A DNA stretch of 34,906 bases from Flavobacteriaceae bacterium. GTDB taxonomy: Bacteria > Bacteroidota > Bacteroidia > Flavobacteriales > Flavobacteriaceae. Position 1 is the first letter of the stretch; each line of letters begins with the position of its first letter. Where the stretch lies: positions 61,769 through 96,674 of the forward strand of contig PBNJ01000007.1 in NCBI GenBank assembly GCA_002723075.1. Direction: 5' to 3'. A model generated the notes under the pieces. That model was not told the DNA's origin, ran no database searches, and was given only the letters and a program-made list of their open reading frames with translations. The position numbers were made by a program, and so were the translations under genes. Below, piece after piece: positions 2,044-34,906 of this stretch.

Positions 2044-2079
2044 CAAAAATCTAATTTTTAGCGTAATTTGTCACGAAAA

Positions 2080-2499
2080 ATGAAACGGTTATTCCCAGTT
2101 ATTGTTTGTGTTATATTTGGTTGTCAGGGTGATATCGTAGAGCAAAATCCCTACCTCAATAATTTACCCTCCTTTGAATTTGAACTCAATCTCGATTTAC
2201 CACTATACGATAACCTTCGCTTTGCTGGCGGAACGCTTACCCTTAGCCAGTTAGGGTTTAAGGGTGTTCATCTGTACAACCTGGATGGCTCCCAAATCCT
2301 GGCATGGGAAGCAAGCTGCCCCAACCAAAGACCTAGTGACTGCTCCAAAACCATTGTGAATGGCATTGAAGCCGTATGTAGTTGTGATGATTCCATTTAC
2401 AGTTTAGTCACTGGACAACCACTAAGCAAGGACGTCGAATATGGTTTGGTCAACTACGGCGTTCGTCGTACCGGGAATCTCGTGCTTGTCTACAACTAA
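2080..2499 (+). CDS. Lipoprotein with degenerate Rieske-like fold
   Basis: A 139-residue protein of unknown function. The start is taken as the ATG at 2080, which gives a compact lipoprotein signal peptide; a TTG four codons earlier is in frame but less likely. The lipobox is VIFGC with C15. The C-terminal half resembles the two cluster-binding loops of Rieske proteins: loop 1 is CPNQRPSDC (C80, N82, C88) and loop 2 is CSCDD (C100, C102, D103), followed by YSLVTG. The two Fe-ligand histidines are thus replaced by N82 and D103, while all four cysteines of a classical Rieske protein remain. It probably binds no standard Rieske cluster. It ends convergently, overlapping the TonB receptor by four bases. 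Confidence 0.75.
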   Translation: MKRLFPVIVCVIFGCQGDIVEQNPYLNNLPSFEFELNLDLPLYDNLRFAGGTLTLSQLGFKGVHLYNLDGSQILAWEASCPNQRPSDCSKTIVNGIEAVCSCDDSIYSLVTGQPLSKDVEYGLVNYGVRRTGNLVLVYN

Positions 2500-4682
2500 A
2501 AGCGTATTGTCATCCCAGCTAGAAAATGAAATCCTGCTTGCGGATAATATCCAACGCCCTCGATTGTGGTAATCGATCCTGGGTTACTCCAGTCATCGTC
2601 ATAAGTATAAAAATAACCGTTGGATGTATATTCTTTATCCAATACATTATTTAACAACAACTGCAGCTGTAAAGACTCACACCAAGATGGTGCAATCGTA
2701 TACTCTATATTGATATCTTGTGTGCTGTATGCCGCAAGCTTTGATAAAGTAGAGTCGATATTGCCTAAGTACTGCTCTCCAACATATTTGCTGAATAGAC
2801 CTACCGTCAAGTCTTTTGTAGGGCTATAGCTCAACTGACTCCCGCCGATGACACCTGGCGAAAAGGACAGGCTGGTATCTCCAAGAGCTTGCAACTCGCC
2901 ATCACGTTTAAAGAAAAAATCTCGATTCTTGTTTTCACTCAATGATAGATTAGATTGCCATTGCCACTGTTCGGTCATCATCCAGCTGAGTTCCAACTCC
3001 ACTCCCAGGCGATAACTACTTCCGCTATTGGTTCGTATAGGTGCTCCCACCTCATCGATCGCCCCTGTCAGGACAAGCTGATTGGTGTAATCCATAAAAT
3101 ACGCATTGACAATAAATTGCAGATTTGATTTTTGATGACGCCACCCCAATTCAAAATCGGTTAACTCTTCAGGTAATGGATTTCCATTTTCAAAATCCGT
3201 CCGATTGGGCTCTTTGTGCGCTCGTGCAACAGAAAAATAAAGTTGATGATTGGGATTCATACTAAAGGTAACCCCAGCTTTGGGGTTAAAAAACCCATAA
3301 TTTAGATTGACATCAATCGGCACTTGCCCTGCCTGCATGCCGTTGGCTTTGTAATCAATCCAACGGTACTGTATATCGGTATAAACCGTCCATTGACTAC
3401 CAACTGCATGGGTGAGTTTAGCAAATACATTGGTGTCTGTTTTCTCTCCTTTGTTTTCGTAAAACCGATGGTTTGGCAGTGCCCCGCCAGCGTTTTGCGC
3501 CCAAATCAACGTACCAAAATGATCTCCAAGGTAATTGCTGTAGGAGAATCCGAGATTGAGTTTCTGAGTACCTTTTTCAAATGCTGCCATCAAATTGGCG
3601 ACATAAAAATCATTGTCCAACCATTTTTGGGTGATGTTTTCCGTATCCACTGCATCGGTTTGAGGCAATTGCAAATAATTGGCTGACGTATTTCCTGAAA
3701 ATCCAATATTTTGATCATACCATATATCATTGAGTTCTTGATAGTATCCTCTTCCGTAGGTATAATTCAAACCAAGGGCTAAGGACCAATAGGCGTTGAT
3801 CCCTTGCTCCCAATGCAAATGATAATGATCTTGATTGTAATTGTCTACTTGATCCTCATAAAACCCGATAACATTTCCGTCACTGTCGTAATTTTCACCT
3901 GCTGGATTATAGCTTCGATTTGTTTTCAGGGTCGTTTCATCAATTCCAAACCAAGACTGATAGGTGCGTTCAAACCCACCAAATGCCAATGCTTTAATTT
4001 GCGTATTTTCGTCTATAAATATCCCTTGTAAGAAATAAGACTTCAAGTCGGAACTCGCTCGCTCAATATAGCCATCAGAATCAATTTTGGATAGGCGGCC
4101 CGAGAGCTCAAATTGATCAGAGATCGGTCCAGTTGAAAACATTACCGTATGTTTCCGCGTGGTAAAACTCCCAAAACTGTTGCTCAACTCCACATAAGCG
4201 GCATCTGACATGCGATCGGTTGACAGGTTGATACTAGCCCCAAAAGCTCCTGCACCATTGGTCGAAGTCCCCACACCACGTTGAAGTTGTAAAGTTCCTA
4301 CAGACGAGCCAAAATCAGGGAGATTTACCCAGAATGTACCCTGTGATTCGGCATCGTTGTATGGGATGCCGTTGATGTTGACATTGATGCGAGTGGCATC
4401 GCTCCCACGCACACGAATTCCTGTATAGCCAATCCCTGCCCCAGCATCACTGGTCGAAACCACACTAGGGAGAAATTGAAGGAGAATCGGCATATCCACT
4501 CCCAAATTGCGATGACCCAAATCTTCTTTTGTTAGATTGGTGTAGGCAACTGGCGTTTCACTTGTCGCCTGTAAAGCAGAAATGGTAACTTCTTTTAAGT
4601 CAATTGTTGATTGTATGGTGTCTTGTACTTGTTGTGCATATCCCCATGTCAGGCATGAGAAAATCAATAAAGCATATTTCAT
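2496..4682 (-). CDS. TonB-dependent outer-membrane receptor, probably for thiamine
   Basis: A 728-residue TonB-dependent receptor. A signal peptide of about 16 residues ends near GYAQQ. A possible TonB box (TIDLKEVTISAL) comes next, then a plug domain with GIRVRGSDATRINVNINGIP and a 22-strand-type barrel ending in an aromatic terminal strand (MTIRF). There is no N-terminal carboxypeptidase-like domain. A TPP riboswitch sits directly upstream. Receptors under TPP riboswitch control are known in Bacteroidetes as the predicted thiamine receptor OMR1, so thiamine or a phosphorylated form is the likely substrate. The upstream genes on the same strand (permease, kinase, thiamine-binding protein) support this. 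The family is certain; the substrate is inferred from regulation and context. Confidence 0.9.
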   Translation of the reverse strand: MKYALLIFSCLTWGYAQQVQDTIQSTIDLKEVTISALQATSETPVAYTNLTKEDLGHRNLGVDMPILLQFLPSVVSTSDAGAGIGYTGIRVRGSDATRINVNINGIPYNDAESQGTFWVNLPDFGSSVGTLQLQRGVGTSTNGAGAFGASINLSTDRMSDAAYVELSNSFGSFTTRKHTVMFSTGPISDQFELSGRLSKIDSDGYIERASSDLKSYFLQGIFIDENTQIKALAFGGFERTYQSWFGIDETTLKTNRSYNPAGENYDSDGNVIGFYEDQVDNYNQDHYHLHWEQGINAYWSLALGLNYTYGRGYYQELNDIWYDQNIGFSGNTSANYLQLPQTDAVDTENITQKWLDNDFYVANLMAAFEKGTQKLNLGFSYSNYLGDHFGTLIWAQNAGGALPNHRFYENKGEKTDTNVFAKLTHAVGSQWTVYTDIQYRWIDYKANGMQAGQVPIDVNLNYGFFNPKAGVTFSMNPNHQLYFSVARAHKEPNRTDFENGNPLPEELTDFELGWRHQKSNLQFIVNAYFMDYTNQLVLTGAIDEVGAPIRTNSGSSYRLGVELELSWMMTEQWQWQSNLSLSENKNRDFFFKRDGELQALGDTSLSFSPGVIGGSQLSYSPTKDLTVGLFSKYVGEQYLGNIDSTLSKLAAYSTQDINIEYTIAPSWCESLQLQLLLNNVLDKEYTSNGYFYTYDDDWSNPGSITTIEGVGYYPQAGFHFLAGMTIRF

Positions 4683-4703
4683 TCGTAATCATTTTATACG
4701 AAT
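4680..4703 (-). promoter_or_regulatory. Start-codon hairpin, probable riboswitch expression platform
   Basis: A 7-bp perfect inverted repeat (plus-strand ATTCGTA at 4681-4687 and TACGAAT at 4697-4703) with a 9-base loop contains two bases of the receptor's ATG (4680-4682). It could hide the initiation codon. It lies about 32 bases downstream of the TPP aptamer, so it is a good candidate for the part that converts ligand binding into a translational effect. This is an inference from complementarity only. Confidence 0.5.
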
Positions 4704-4733
4704 AAAAGGGGGAATTATTCTGATGGTTTAAAA

Positions 4734-4803
4734 ATTATCCCTTGGCAGCATGACCTGCCCAGGTTCAATGGGTGTAATCTCAGCCCGATTGGGCACCCCT
4801 TTG
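4734..4803 (-). promoter_or_regulatory. TPP riboswitch (THI element)
   Basis: The minus strand carries the conserved blocks of a TPP riboswitch in order. They are GGGGTGCC (4792-4799), the P2 arms TGCCC and GGGCTGAGA with the CTGAGA block at 4778-4783, an ACACCC segment, GAACCTG (4760-4766), an ATGCTGCC segment and AGGGA (4738-4742). Spacing and order match the known THI box. It lies between the DUF4301 gene and the TonB receptor, with 51 bases from aptamer to start codon. A CCCCCTTTT stretch downstream (4704-4712) is complementary to the 5' AAAGGGG of the aptamer and could form a competing helix. Confidence 0.93.
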
Positions 4804-4811
4804 AGATGGCT

Positions 4812-4819
4812 CAAAGATA
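4812..4819 (-). promoter_or_regulatory. Possible -7 promoter box before the TPP riboswitch
   Basis: TATCTTTG on the minus strand fits the TAnnTTTG consensus. It would start a transcript just before the aptamer, giving the TonB receptor its own riboswitch-controlled mRNA. No TTG is seen at the expected -33 distance, so read-through from the upstream genes is an alternative. Confidence 0.4.
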
Positions 4820-4825
4820 ACAGAA

Positions 4826-6328
4826 TTAATTTTGATTCTGATGCGTTTTGCGCAACAAATCATTGACCTCTTTAACAGGATTAAACATGGTCGGTGGTAT
4901 CGATACAAAAAGGGTATTCCAAAAGGCCATTGCCCCGTTCCATAGCCCAGGGTGCTCCATCGCTTTTATTGGCTTACCATTCATGGTTTTAGAGACAACA
5001 AAATAAGTCGATGGGTCAACGTATTTATTCAAATCATACTTTTCTCCCTTATAGTCGATCAAGCTACAGACTAACTCGACAGGGTTAAAGTGTGTCCCTT
5101 GAAAAAAATGTGCAGCTTGTGAAGGGTTGCTTAGATCTACTTGGGCTTTTTCAACAATCTGTAGATGTACACCCATCTCATCTTCTACCCAAAACGGCCC
5201 TCCGCCAGTTTCACCAGTATTGGGAACCATTCCGCAAACTCGTAATGGTCGGTCGAGTAGCGCGATAACCCTCTGTTTTCTCAATTCCTGATCCTCGCCG
5301 TGAATATGAAAATGAAACTGTTGATCTAAAAAATGAACAGCTTCGTCCAACACCCCATCATCATCAATGGTACGAAGAAGTCGGAAAATCTGTTGTTGAA
5401 TCTCCAACAGATAACCCGCCAATGCACGCTTATACATCCCAGATTCTTGATGCTGAGCTTGTGGCGCAACATTGTCAATATTATTGATAAAAACAATATC
5501 CGCTTCAATACGATTGAGGTTTTGGATTAGTGCCCCATGACCTGCTGCACGAAATACCAATTGCCCACCATCATCTGTTACCAATTGACCTTCTGAATCC
5601 ATGACCAAGGAATCTGTCGATACCTCTTGCACCGAATAACCTACATCGACCCTGCAAGAATGAGAGTCCTCAAGTAGCAAGCGAGCATCTTGAATGTGTT
5701 GATCAAAATCGTTTTCATAGCCCGGTGTGACCGTAAAGTGGTGAGCAAGACGGTCGTTGGCAAGTGAGAATTGAGTCGAATAGATCAACTGCTCTTCAAT
5801 AGCGGTTTTTAAGGTTTTATTGTATTTGTGGAAGGGTACAAATGCTTTGGGCTTGTTGGCGTAATGTTTTACCACATATACGATAAAGGCTTGTAAAAAA
5901 TCTGTTTCGTCAATCGGATGAGTGTTTTCGATTTGTTCTTTGACCATTTCGTAAAACGGAAAATGCTGAACGCCGTCGATAAAACGTTTCACCTTGGGAT
6001 TGTTTAGATGGGCTTGTAGGGCAACTTTAAAATCTTGCTGATCCTCCACGACAAGTGGAAACAAAAAATCAAACATCCGCGTAGCCATACCTGAAGCTGG
6101 GATAAATCGAATCACACGGTAGTCATCGACAGACTCCTCATAAAACTTTGCATGTTGTTTTAGATCGCTATCGCTAAGCTCAGCAATGCCATCTCCCAAG
6201 GTTGCTGGTCGATGGATCTGGCTGTATGTCGATTGTTGATTGATTTTGGTAATCATCGCCCTAGCATCAGAGATCGAAATCCCACGCGCTTTGAGTTGGT
6301 TGATCTGGTTTTCTGAAAATTCAAACAT
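4826..6328 (-). CDS. DUF4301 family protein, candidate nucleotidyltransferase-like enzyme
   Basis: A 501-residue protein that I recognise as DUF4301, a Bacteroidota family without an established function. The ATG at 6328 is chosen because it overlaps the preceding gene's stop by only eight bases. An upstream in-frame ATG at 6400 would overlap by 80. Two conserved-looking glycine-rich motifs are visible: FIPASGMATRMF (residues 75-86) and NTGETGGGPF (about 370-379). The first resembles the nucleotide-binding loop of sugar-phosphate nucleotidyltransferases, but this resemblance is weak. No signal peptide or membrane helix is evident, so it is cytoplasmic. It sits between a NadR-like kinase and the TPP riboswitch, so a part in thiamine salvage is plausible but unproven. 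Confidence 0.8.
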   Translation of the reverse strand: MFEFSENQINQLKARGISISDARAMITKINQQSTYSQIHRPATLGDGIAELSDSDLKQHAKFYEESVDDYRVIRFIPASGMATRMFDFLFPLVVEDQQDFKVALQAHLNNPKVKRFIDGVQHFPFYEMVKEQIENTHPIDETDFLQAFIVYVVKHYANKPKAFVPFHKYNKTLKTAIEEQLIYSTQFSLANDRLAHHFTVTPGYENDFDQHIQDARLLLEDSHSCRVDVGYSVQEVSTDSLVMDSEGQLVTDDGGQLVFRAAGHGALIQNLNRIEADIVFINNIDNVAPQAQHQESGMYKRALAGYLLEIQQQIFRLLRTIDDDGVLDEAVHFLDQQFHFHIHGEDQELRKQRVIALLDRPLRVCGMVPNTGETGGGPFWVEDEMGVHLQIVEKAQVDLSNPSQAAHFFQGTHFNPVELVCSLIDYKGEKYDLNKYVDPSTYFVVSKTMNGKPIKAMEHPGLWNGAMAFWNTLFVSIPPTMFNPVKEVNDLLRKTHQNQN

Positions 6329-6887
6329 GGGCAAACTGGGATTGAATCGCGTGAATAGCAGATTGAAAACGATCTTGCCCATGGCCTTGTATGAGCACAT
6401 AAGGTCGATGGAGTGATTGGAGGGCTTTTTTGAATTCCGCTAGCATTTGGTCTCTTTCTTCAGGTTTGTCGCGTAAGTCATCCGCTACCCATGGAATATC
6501 AATATCCAATAATAAATAGAGATCATAGTGGTTGTTGACTGCAAAATAATGTAAATCGGGATCGCAATAGCCCTCAAAGTAAACCTCCGAATAAATTTTG
6601 GTGACAAGCAAATCGGTATCACAAAACAAGATCGAATCGGTGTTGCTCGCTTTTTGATTTTCAAGAGCCATTTGCCCAGCTGCTATGATTGGCAAATCTT
6701 CTTTGGAACAAATTTTTTTTTTCTGATCCCATTTTTTTTGGAGATATGTACGAGCATACTCCGGCACCCAATCTGAGTTGTAATAGGAAGCCAACTTCTT
6801 TGCAAGTGTCGTTTTTCCGGTCGATTCTGGACCGAACAAAACTACTTTCTTACAGTTGCAGGATGTTTGTCCAAAATCTTTTTCCAT
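6321..6887 (-). CDS. NadR-like P-loop kinase (thiamine or ribosylnicotinamide kinase candidate)
   Basis: A 188-residue cytoplasmic ATPase similar to the ribosylnicotinamide kinase domain of NadR. Walker A is GPESTGKT (residues 19-26). The family motifs VPEYARTYL (41-49) and FCDTDLLVTKIYS (88-100), and an Arg-rich lid (DDLRDKPEERDQ), follow. No nucleotidyltransferase or helix-turn-helix domain of full NadR is present. The gene overlaps the permease stop by 46 bases and the DUF4301 start by eight bases, which indicates tight coupling. In other bacteria such kinases trap nicotinamide riboside imported by PnuC. Here the TPP riboswitch and thiamine-binding neighbour suggest the trapped substrate may be thiamine. 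Both options remain open. Confidence 0.85.
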   Translation of the reverse strand: MEKDFGQTSCNCKKVVLFGPESTGKTTLAKKLASYYNSDWVPEYARTYLQKKWDQKKKICSKEDLPIIAAGQMALENQKASNTDSILFCDTDLLVTKIYSEVYFEGYCDPDLHYFAVNNHYDLYLLLDIDIPWVADDLRDKPEERDQMLAEFKKALQSLHRPYVLIQGHGQDRFQSAIHAIQSQFAHV

Positions 6888-7480
6888 TCGAGATAGCCAT
6901 AGATGGCAATAAAAGTGAAAATCAAGTATTGTAAGCTTGTAAAACTAAAGCCTTTAATCAGATACAAAGGTACAGAAATGATATCGCCGACAATCCAAAA
7001 AATCCAGTTTTCTAACTTGCGTCGAGCCATCAACCACATCCCCGAAAAAAAGATTGCAGTCGTCAGCGTATCAATCGCCGCCGTAGATGAATTCCATAGT
7101 CCAAACCATTGATAAATGCCATAGACAAACCCCAAACTCCCAACAAAAAGCAGAAGAAGATATCGCCATTCTTGTTGGTTCATTCTCGAGATTGGCGTCG
7201 CTTGTTCCTGATCATTGACGCGCGTCCAAATCACCCAACCATAGACTGACATTCCAAAATAGTATGCATTAATCAGCATATCTCCGACTAAGGCCCACTT
7301 AAGCAAGAGATAAACATAAATTGAAGTAGAAATCATCCCCGTTGGAAAGACTCCAATATGATTTTTTTTGGCAAGCCAGACACTTAGCAATCCAAAAACA
7401 ACACCCGTAATCTCTAGGGTGACATCAAGAGGCTCGTAGGTGGCGTATTGCGCAAAAAGAGATTCAAAAATCGGAGACAT
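6842..7480 (-). CDS. PnuC/PnuT family vitamin permease
   Basis: An inner-membrane facilitator of about 212 residues with roughly seven hydrophobic segments. The family signature NAYYFGMSVYGWVIWTR is present, as is the N-terminal EITGVVFGLLSVWLAKK helix. The start at 7480 gives 17 bases of overlap with the upstream gene; the ATG at 7498 is also possible. PnuC carries nicotinamide riboside and PnuT carries thiamine; the two are close relatives. The thiamine-binding protein immediately upstream and the TPP riboswitch downstream favour PnuT. The NadR-like kinase immediately downstream would keep a nicotinamide riboside function possible. The family is secure, the substrate is not. Confidence 0.9.
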   Translation of the reverse strand: MSPIFESLFAQYATYEPLDVTLEITGVVFGLLSVWLAKKNHIGVFPTGMISTSIYVYLLLKWALVGDMLINAYYFGMSVYGWVIWTRVNDQEQATPISRMNQQEWRYLLLLFVGSLGFVYGIYQWFGLWNSSTAAIDTLTTAIFFSGMWLMARRKLENWIFWIVGDIISVPLYLIKGFSFTSLQYLIFTFIAIYGYLEWKKILDKHPATVRK

Positions 7481-7724
7481 AGTTACTACGGTCAGCATTA
7501 TAAATTTTGAGGTGCATGATTCCTTTTTCTTTTTCGTTTAGCGCTGTTTTGATGGTTTTCATCAAAAAAGGCATCAACTTATCATAAGTGCCATACAATT
7601 GGGTACCTAGCGGGGTTTCTGAAATCGTAAATCCACCACTGCGTAAATCCAAAATAAAGTTCTTGATCCGGTCTTTGTACTGATCATGTAATGGCGTAAA
7701 TGTAAGCTCTACTGAGATATTCAT
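7464..7724 (-). CDS. YkoF/MTH1187-type thiamine-binding protein
   Basis: An 86-residue single-domain protein with the pattern of the MTH1187/YkoF thiamine-binding family. It has an N-terminal beta strand (ISVELTFTPL), a helix with DRIKNFILDL, then the GTQLYGTYDKLMPFL segment. Members bind thiamine or its pyrimidine part (HMP). No signal peptide is present, so it is cytoplasmic. Its ATG overlaps the stop of the phosphopantetheinyl transferase by four bases, and its stop overlaps the permease start, so it is in the same transcription unit. Its presence is an independent clue that the cluster handles thiamine. Confidence 0.78.
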   Translation of the reverse strand: MNISVELTFTPLHDQYKDRIKNFILDLRSGGFTISETPLGTQLYGTYDKLMPFLMKTIKTALNEKEKGIMHLKIYNADRSNYVSDF

Positions 7725-8326
7725 AGTTGGTTTTTTATGGTTACTGCACAGCTATGGCCTTGCCATGCGTAACGGAAAAGATCATAGGTTTCGTCTTTGT
7801 AGATTGCTACACCCTTTTTGGAGATTGTCAGGTTGACAGAGATATCCTTACTAAATCGAATACCAGGAATTGAAATGGCTTTATACATGGACTCTTTTGC
7901 GCACCACAAGTCGGTTAGCTCAGCAATGGTTTGTTGAGGAGCTTCGTCAGCAGGGTTGACAAACTTTTTTGCGACACGCACAACCTTGGCTCGGTGGCGT
8001 TCTACGTCTACTCCTATCGGGGCTTGGCCAATGGCTAAAGCTGCAAAATCATTGGTATGACTAAACGATATGTGTGGGCCATGCAGTAGGTACGGCTTTC
8101 CCTCTGAAGTATAGCGAAGCTCATCCAGAGAAAGACCAGCAGCGATAAGTAATAAACGCACTGCCAAAAACCCTTTCCGGTGAGTGCATGAAGACATCGA
8201 TTTGAGACGGTCAATACAATGCGTTGTTAAGGATAGGTTGTTGGTCAAACCCTGCTCATCCTCAGTAATATGCCACACCCATAGCTTTGCTATAGAATTC
8301 ACTTGCTGATGTTTGTATATGGGCAT
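7721..8326 (-). CDS. 4'-phosphopantetheinyl transferase superfamily protein
   Basis: This enzyme transfers 4'-phosphopantetheine from CoA to a carrier protein serine. The 201-residue form starting at ATG 8326 is chosen; a longer frame to 8446 would run deep into the divergent adenosylhomocysteinase gene. Motifs are ISFSHTNDFAALAIG, GVDVERHRAKV (Mg-binding acidic residues) and WCAKESMYKA, all typical of the Sfp/AcpT group. It is the first gene of the minus-strand cluster that leads into the thiamine genes and overlaps the next gene by four bases. Whether it acts on fatty-acid ACP or a secondary-metabolite carrier cannot be told; no carrier or synthase gene is nearby. Confidence 0.93.
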   Translation of the reverse strand: MPIYKHQQVNSIAKLWVWHITEDEQGLTNNLSLTTHCIDRLKSMSSCTHRKGFLAVRLLLIAAGLSLDELRYTSEGKPYLLHGPHISFSHTNDFAALAIGQAPIGVDVERHRAKVVRVAKKFVNPADEAPQQTIAELTDLWCAKESMYKAISIPGIRFSKDISVNLTISKKGVAIYKDETYDLFRYAWQGHSCAVTIKNQL

Positions 8327-34248: not shown

Positions 34249-34906
34249 TTAACGCATATTATTTTTAGAACGATCAAACACATAGTCCAAGACTTGTTGG
34301 TGTCGTCTCTTAAATCGTGTTGCACTACCCGCCGCTGGTGTCCCATAGAACCGTCTGGAAGCCACGCGAAACTGCTGGGCAGCTGGTAAATGCAATAGCA
34401 AATGACTCCAAGCTCCCATATTGCGGGGTTCTTCTTGCGCCCAGACCACATCAGAAACGTGGGCATAATCTGCCAAAATATTTTCAATTTCGTTTTTTGG
34501 TAAAGGAAACAATTGTTCTAAACGGATGATGGCAACATCATCACGACCTTGTTTTTCACGCTCATCGATCAAGTCATAATAAAATTTACCTGTACAGAAC
34601 ACGAGAGTTTTGGTGTTTTTGACAGGGATCTCGTTTTCAAGAATGACCGGTTGAAAAGACCCTGTAGTAAATTCATCAACGGTGGAAACCACTTTGGGAT
34701 GGCGCAGCAAACTTTTGGGTGTAAACACAACCAATGGTTTGCGGAAGTTGGGCTTGACTTGTCGGCGTAAAACGTGGAATAAGTTGGCTGGCGTGGTCAC
34801 ATCAACCACATACATATTGTCTTTGGCGCAGAGTTGTAAATAGCGTTCCATACGCGCAGAAGAGTGTTCGGCTCCCTGTCCTTCATAGCCATGCGGAAGT
34901 AAAAGG
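34249..34906 (-). CDS. odhA: 2-oxoglutarate dehydrogenase E1 component, C-terminal part only
   Basis: The frame is open to the right edge, so only about the last 219 codons are seen. The edge reads LLPHGYEGQGAEHSSAR, a signature of the E1 pyrimidine-binding domain. KPLVVFTPKSLLRHP and QEEPRNMGAWSH follow, matching the E1 C-terminus. The enzyme uses TPP to decarboxylate 2-oxoglutarate. It precedes odhB directly, the usual sucA-sucB order. Confidence 0.96.
   Translation of the reverse strand, partial: LLLPHGYEGQGAEHSSARMERYLQLCAKDNMYVVDVTTPANLFHVLRRQVKPNFRKPLVVFTPKSLLRHPKVVSTVDEFTTGSFQPVILENEIPVKNTKTLVFCTGKFYYDLIDEREKQGRDDVAIIRLEQLFPLPKNEIENILADYAHVSDVVWAQEEPRNMGAWSHLLLHLPAAQQFRVASRRFYGTPAAGSATRFKRRHQQVLDYVFDRSKNNMR

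Follow-up and report, generated by a model that had tools for sequence, protein, structure and literature searches.

A 34,906-nucleotide stretch (the window) of contig PBNJ01000007.1, from a 1.69-Mb metagenome-assembled genome (MAG) of a Flavobacteriaceae bacterium (GCA_002723075.1), carries a minus-strand block of genes with a thiamine-related regulatory element. Read from position 8326 down to 2496, the block comprises a phosphopantetheinyl transferase (PPTase), a small Thiamine_BP protein, a Pnu-type transporter, a NadR-type kinase, a DUF4301 protein, a thiamine pyrophosphate (TPP) aptamer and, directly behind the aptamer, a TonB-dependent receptor (Table 1). Profile searches with the window proteins confirmed the genes and their minus-strand order as described in an initial annotation made from the sequence. 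Judged by family conservation, the DUF4301 gene starts near 6328, so that its overlap with the kinase gene is 8 bases and not 80, and the transporter gene probably starts near 7480.

Table 1. Features of the minus-strand block, with window coordinates
Feature	Coordinates	Strand	Evidence
Sfp-type PPTase, leading gene of the block	7721..8326	-	PF01648 7.5e-8; ATG at 8326
86-residue Thiamine_BP / YkoF-like protein	7464..7724	-	PF01910 via aligned members; PDB 2ibo 3.4e-6
PnuC-family permease, predicted PnuT (thiamine facilitator)	6842..7498	-	PF04973 7.9e-52; TIGR01528 over cut-off
NadR-type P-loop kinase, predicted thiamine kinase (thiamine to thiamine monophosphate)	6321..6887	-	AAA_28 5.8e-39; partial NadR match
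DUF4301, UDP-sugar-pyrophosphorylase-like nucleotidyltransferase	4826..6328	-	PF14134 1.9e-157
TPP riboswitch aptamer ahead of the receptor gene	4721..4810	-	RF00059 43.7 bits
Conserved expression-platform element: GAATAATTCCCCCTTTTATTCG, then hairpin 4703-4681	4680..4720	-	67 distinct copies
TonB-dependent receptor, predicted thiamine receptor (OMR1/OMthi type)	2496..4682	-	PF00593 3.8e-27; PF07715 9.4e-8

The order PPTase, Thiamine_BP, PnuT, kinase, DUF4301 is kept in Flavobacteriaceae, usually with the TPP aptamer and the OMR1 receptor next, and is found in Algibacter, Winogradskyella, Olleya, Dokdonia, Aequorivita, Gramella, Nonlabens, Aquimarina and Flavobacterium, the Flavobacterium version lacking Thiamine_BP. 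Since these named Flavobacteriaceae keep the same arrangement, the order of the locus is not due to chance. More distant families have loci free of DUF4301 in which the kinase lies beside PnuT and/or just upstream of the TPP aptamer and OMR1 (L169, L174, L175, L187 and L189).

The kinase, 188 residues long, matches only positions 162 to 321 of the 325 in the NadR model TIGR01526 (112.9 bits, against a cut-off of 341) and has no N-terminal nicotinamide mononucleotide (NMN) adenylyltransferase domain of the kind found in bifunctional NadR. Its homology to the NadR kinase domain is clear: NadR kinase domains in the PDB match it at 5e-27 to 1e-14, and it retains the Walker A motif, D90, W133, D136 and R139, sharing Walker A and lid residues with them. 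Because the catalytic residues are common to the short forms, by which we mean the kinase standing alone or fused to DUF4301, these should be active kinases. A tree of 67 kinases has a branch (98/78) that sets the short forms apart from full-length NadR, except for one small short-form group (L191, L192); TPP/OMR1 contexts are scattered over the short forms. Two of four long NadR-like forms that were scanned gave the cytidylyltransferase-like N-terminal match expected of NadR. Full-length NadR and the short kinase coexist in some genomes, which, together with the tree, makes a merged NAD and thiamine salvage cluster, proposed in the initial annotation, unlikely.

The permease belongs to the Pnu-type transporters by its PF04973 profile match and is predicted to be PnuT, its thiamine specificity being read from the linkage to the TPP aptamer and OMR1; among the conserved columns, no clear specificity marker separates PnuT from NadR-linked PnuC. 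The 86-residue protein misses the Pfam cut-off when searched alone (0.046). However, each of the 22 members of its alignment matches PF01910, the best at 1e-8, and its model matches the structures of TM0486, SP2199 and MTH1187, with a fold Z of 12.7 to 1vk8; on profile and modeled fold, its predicted membership in the Thiamine_BP/MTH1187 family (PF01910) holds.

The TPP aptamer behind the riboswitch of the initial annotation is well supported, although its score lies below the Rfam gathering score of 54.3; a default scan misses the aptamer, while a scan by E-value finds it (2.3e-7 in 501 bases). The sequence and helices P2 to P5 of RF00059 are present, and the closing helix P1 is not formed. 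Covariation across 21 sequences backs the assignment: 98.4% of cells are paired, both partners have changed in 6 of the 15 pairs, and double changes occur in 28 cells where shuffles give 5.5; none of 500 shuffles did as well. Other Flavobacteriaceae aptamers (L062, L067, L094), like that of the window, score 36 to 47 bits, and default annotation would miss them too.

Lying between DUF4301 and the receptor gene, the aptamer can control only the receptor. It is followed by a conserved element, GAATAATnnCCCCTTTTATTCG, and then by a hairpin, ATTCGTAA...TTACGAATG, that includes the A and U of the receptor start codon. The 67 distinct copies of this expression platform in Flavobacteriaceae leaders all lie downstream of a TPP aptamer, as recognized by a loose aptamer pattern. 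Shuffled sequences fold less well than the start-codon hairpin (median z of -3.8 over 54 distinct leaders), and Algibacter-type leaders have replaced its stem sequence and retained the complementarity. These features suggest that the predicted riboswitch probably acts on translation of the receptor, with the hairpin hiding the start codon. In the energy-minimum fold of the leader, AGGGG pairs with CCCCU, two segments that hardly vary and hence have no covariation support. The CCCCUUU of the platform could also pair with the AAAGGGG of the aptamer.

The initial annotation had found no recognizable thiamine pyrophosphokinase (TPK), and indeed PF04263 finds none in the genome of the window or in 12 genus-mates. 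ThiE and ThiC are likewise missing from all 13 genomes of the genus, and ThiK (TIGR02721) has no match in the genome of the window. Thus, among thiN, thiL, thiE and thiC, only thiL was found, its product scoring 314.6 bits against a cut-off of 184. With ThiL present and ThiE absent, the cell needs another source of thiamine monophosphate (TMP), the substrate of ThiL, and none of the known enzymes encoded in this genome appears to make it. The kinase is present in 11 of the 13 genomes. One genus-mate MAG (G003) has two copies of the kinase-DUF4301 pair (C19, C36), perhaps through contamination.

Each family was searched separately over the same 277 genomes of the phylum Bacteroidota; one genus in this set was identified as Flavobacterium because named genomes carry the same fused gene. 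TPK occurs in 137 genomes and the short kinase in 63. Outside Flavobacterium, TPK is found in none of the 50 genomes with the short kinase, and 122 genomes have TPK only. Among the 140 genomes without TPK, 94 have ThiE and 46 do not; the kinase is present in 11 of the former and the short kinase in 39 of the latter. A single genome lacking both TPK and ThiE has neither form of the kinase (G267, a MAG 94% complete; most of the other sampled members of its genus have ThiE). Kinase without TPK spans 36 genera. The pattern also reverses: TPK is present and the kinase absent in G036 (family f11), and G103 and G173 lack the kinase in a TPK-bearing genus. ThiK exceeded its cut-off in none of the 277 genomes, the Escherichia coli control being positive. 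This near-perfect complementarity supports the view, put forward in the initial annotation, that the kinase may activate thiamine.

Taken together, we consider the kinase very likely to be a thiamine kinase that takes the place of TPK in much of the Bacteroidota (non-orthologous replacement), and the block very probably serves thiamine salvage in a marine flavobacterium that is auxotrophic for thiamine. From the observed gene content and complementarity we infer the following route. Thiamine would cross the outer membrane via the TonB receptor (OMR1), whose gene alone the TPP aptamer would control, and the inner membrane via the PnuT-type facilitator. The NadR-type kinase would then phosphorylate the hydroxyethyl group of thiamine, so that the product, TMP, is trapped inside, and ThiL, whose gene lies elsewhere in the genome, would convert TMP to TPP. 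The proposal that the kinase activates thiamine is supported, with one correction: because ThiL is present, the kinase need only make TMP. The C-terminal part of a TPP-dependent 2-oxoglutarate dehydrogenase E1, cut by the window end (34249-34906, minus strand), points to a demand for TPP.

Several observations weigh against this assignment. The MAG is only 85% complete. Thirteen genomes, all of Flavobacterium, have both TPK and the kinase, which is not a simple replacement there, and 6 of the 46 genomes lacking TPK and ThiE have just a longer NadR-like match. The p-values of the complementarity (3e-16 and 1e-17), like the counts, ignore shared ancestry. No residue marking thiamine as opposed to nicotinamide riboside was found when the short kinase was compared with the NadR kinase, and import of TMP or TPP themselves would likewise feed ThiL.

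The last point belongs to an explanation in which the kinase is dispensable for thiamine and either TMP/TPP uptake or an unrecognized TPK supplies the cell, with ThiL finishing activation. PF04263 could miss a TPK that had diverged strongly, and the specificity of PnuT is itself a prediction; however, PF04263 matched 137 of the 277 genomes as well as a Bacteroides control, and a dispensable kinase would leave the complementarity unexplained, so that we regard this explanation as highly improbable. The absence of substrate-specific residues bears on another, namely, that transporter and kinase are an ordinary nicotinamide riboside pair of the PnuC-NadR type that happens to lie beside a thiamine receptor, while an unrecognized enzyme makes TMP. 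The permease does exceed the cut-off of the PnuC equivalog, the NadR kinase domain is, like PnuC, a family of nicotinamide riboside salvage, and neither the short kinase nor PnuT can be told from NadR or PnuC by such residues. Yet in several families this pair would have to be linked to OMR1 and a TPP aptamer, its kinase is complementary with both TPK and ThiE and lacks the NMN adenylyltransferase domain, and full-length NadR branches outside the short kinases and coexists with them in some genomes. A nicotinamide riboside pair is therefore very unlikely. Nor did the outcome appear that the initial annotation gave as refuting its thiamine reading: the genome of the window yielded a single TPP aptamer, that of the locus, and the kinase is linked to PnuT, the aptamer and OMR1.

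Kinase-pyrophosphorylase fusions of the FKP type are known for sugars, and the kinase and DUF4301 might by analogy form a sugar-salvage pair of kinase and nucleotide-sugar pyrophosphorylase whose position in a thiamine cluster is incidental. The UDP-sugar pyrophosphorylase fold of DUF4301 and its fusion to the kinase in Flavobacterium would fit such a pair; it is hard to reconcile with a kinase that accompanies PnuT, the TPP aptamer and OMR1 where DUF4301 is absent and that tracks the absence of TPK and ThiE, and we hold it to be most improbable. A thiamine kinase remains the reading that we prefer.

The fold of DUF4301 was obtained from an AlphaFold (AF2) model (pLDDT 92.3, pTM 0.92), which superimposes on yeast Ugp1p with a Z of 22.5 and a root-mean-square deviation of 3.6 Å over 325 residues and matches human UGPase at 1.4e-10 in Foldseek. 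Its invariant stretches, PASGxATRM, PKG, GHGAL, NIDN, GxGGGPF and PVK..DL (PVKTxNDLL), correspond to the nucleotide- and metal-binding motifs of the UDPGP superfamily, and the model combines a GT-A pyrophosphorylase fold with an N-loop, NxDN and C-terminal PVK motifs of the UDPGP type. The DUF4301 profile gave nothing significant against PDB sequences, one of two weak matches being a UTP-glucose-1-phosphate uridylyltransferase. On this modeled fold, DUF4301 is a predicted accessory nucleotidyltransferase.

A single protein of ~704 residues unites kinase and DUF4301 in Flavobacterium (L065-L074, L076-L078, L080 and other loci), and outside Flavobacteriaceae DUF4301 stands alone. Kinase-bearing genomes without DUF4301 (G048, G107, G126), clusters with DUF4301 and no kinase (L034, L075, L087, L100, L148), and stand-alone copies in many other genomes, for which 51 loci yielded no widely recurring partner apart from lineage-specific neighbors, argue against DUF4301 being essential for thiamine activation. 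The suggestion that DUF4301 itself activates thiamine was consequently not supported: a role as kinase, or as a direct stand-in for TPK, was set aside on the pyrophosphorylase-type fold, and one as the key enzyme on the kinase-bearing genomes without it. It is unlikely, too, that the kinase and DUF4301 work together as a single bifunctional thiamine enzyme, the kinase making TMP and DUF4301 coupling TMP to a nucleotide or cleaving a compound of this sort; if they did, nucleotidylated thiamine would add a new branch to thiamine metabolism, and the UDPGP fold would have a new class of substrate. In a few distant genomes, stand-alone DUF4301 lies near genes resembling STAS-type anti-sigma-factor antagonists, RsbW or response regulators (L035-L039, L079).

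A thiamine uptake operon, OMthi-pnuT-tnr3, is known with genetics from Bacteroides (PMC5613172) and shares with the locus the clustering of TPP riboswitch, TonB receptor (OMthi, or OMR1), PnuT and a thiamine-activating enzyme. The present locus differs from it (PMC5613172) in having a predicted TMP-making NadR-type kinase with ThiL instead of TPK, in the addition of DUF4301 and Thiamine_BP, and in an aptamer that precedes only the receptor. NadR and PnuC share with our pair a homologous kinase domain, a transporter family, gene adjacency and trapping by phosphorylation, whereas the kinase of the locus lacks the adenylyltransferase domain, lies on a separate branch and has a thiamine regulatory context. 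The reactions proposed here, from thiamine via TMP to TPP, are those of the ThiK (YcfN) and ThiL route of enterobacteria, with a kinase of an unrelated family in place of the APH-like ThiK. DUF4301 resembles UDP-glucose and UDP-GlcNAc pyrophosphorylases over nearly its whole model and in the motifs SGxATRM, PKG, GHGA, NIDN and PVKTxNDLL, and departs from the UDPGP superfamily in its ~16% identity, in the lack of a significant profile match and in its kinase fusion in Flavobacterium.

Our literature search, which most subscription papers lay outside, linked neither NadR-type kinases nor DUF4301 to thiamine; DUF4301 was mentioned once, in a metaproteome. Many Bacteroidota, having neither TPK nor ThiK, look incapable of activating thiamine. 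If the kinase does so, the vitamin B1 requirement of these bacteria would be readable from their genomes as a need for whole thiamine, taken up and phosphorylated, rather than its precursors, and a widespread gene family now annotated as NAD-related would have its annotation corrected. DUF4301 would gain a named fold in either case.

The TPK genes of Flavobacterium have no TPP aptamer over them in the four loci tested. In two loci (L196, L198) TPK follows a DUF4249 gene, again without an aptamer, and in L198 this pair adjoins a TonB receptor, ahead of ApbE. The PPTase is the upstream neighbor in most Flavobacteriaceae copies of the thiamine locus, and no role in thiamine salvage is suggested for it. 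Three Aquimarina loci (L088, L113, L114) have PPTase and DUF4301 adjacent but neither PnuT nor the kinase nor a receptor in the vicinity, and look as if the thiamine genes had been lost or not yet gained. At the other end of the block, a lipoprotein-like open reading frame of 143 residues (2068-2499, plus strand), with a Rieske-like CSCDDSIY stretch and no Pfam match, is convergent with the receptor gene and overlaps its end by 4 bases.

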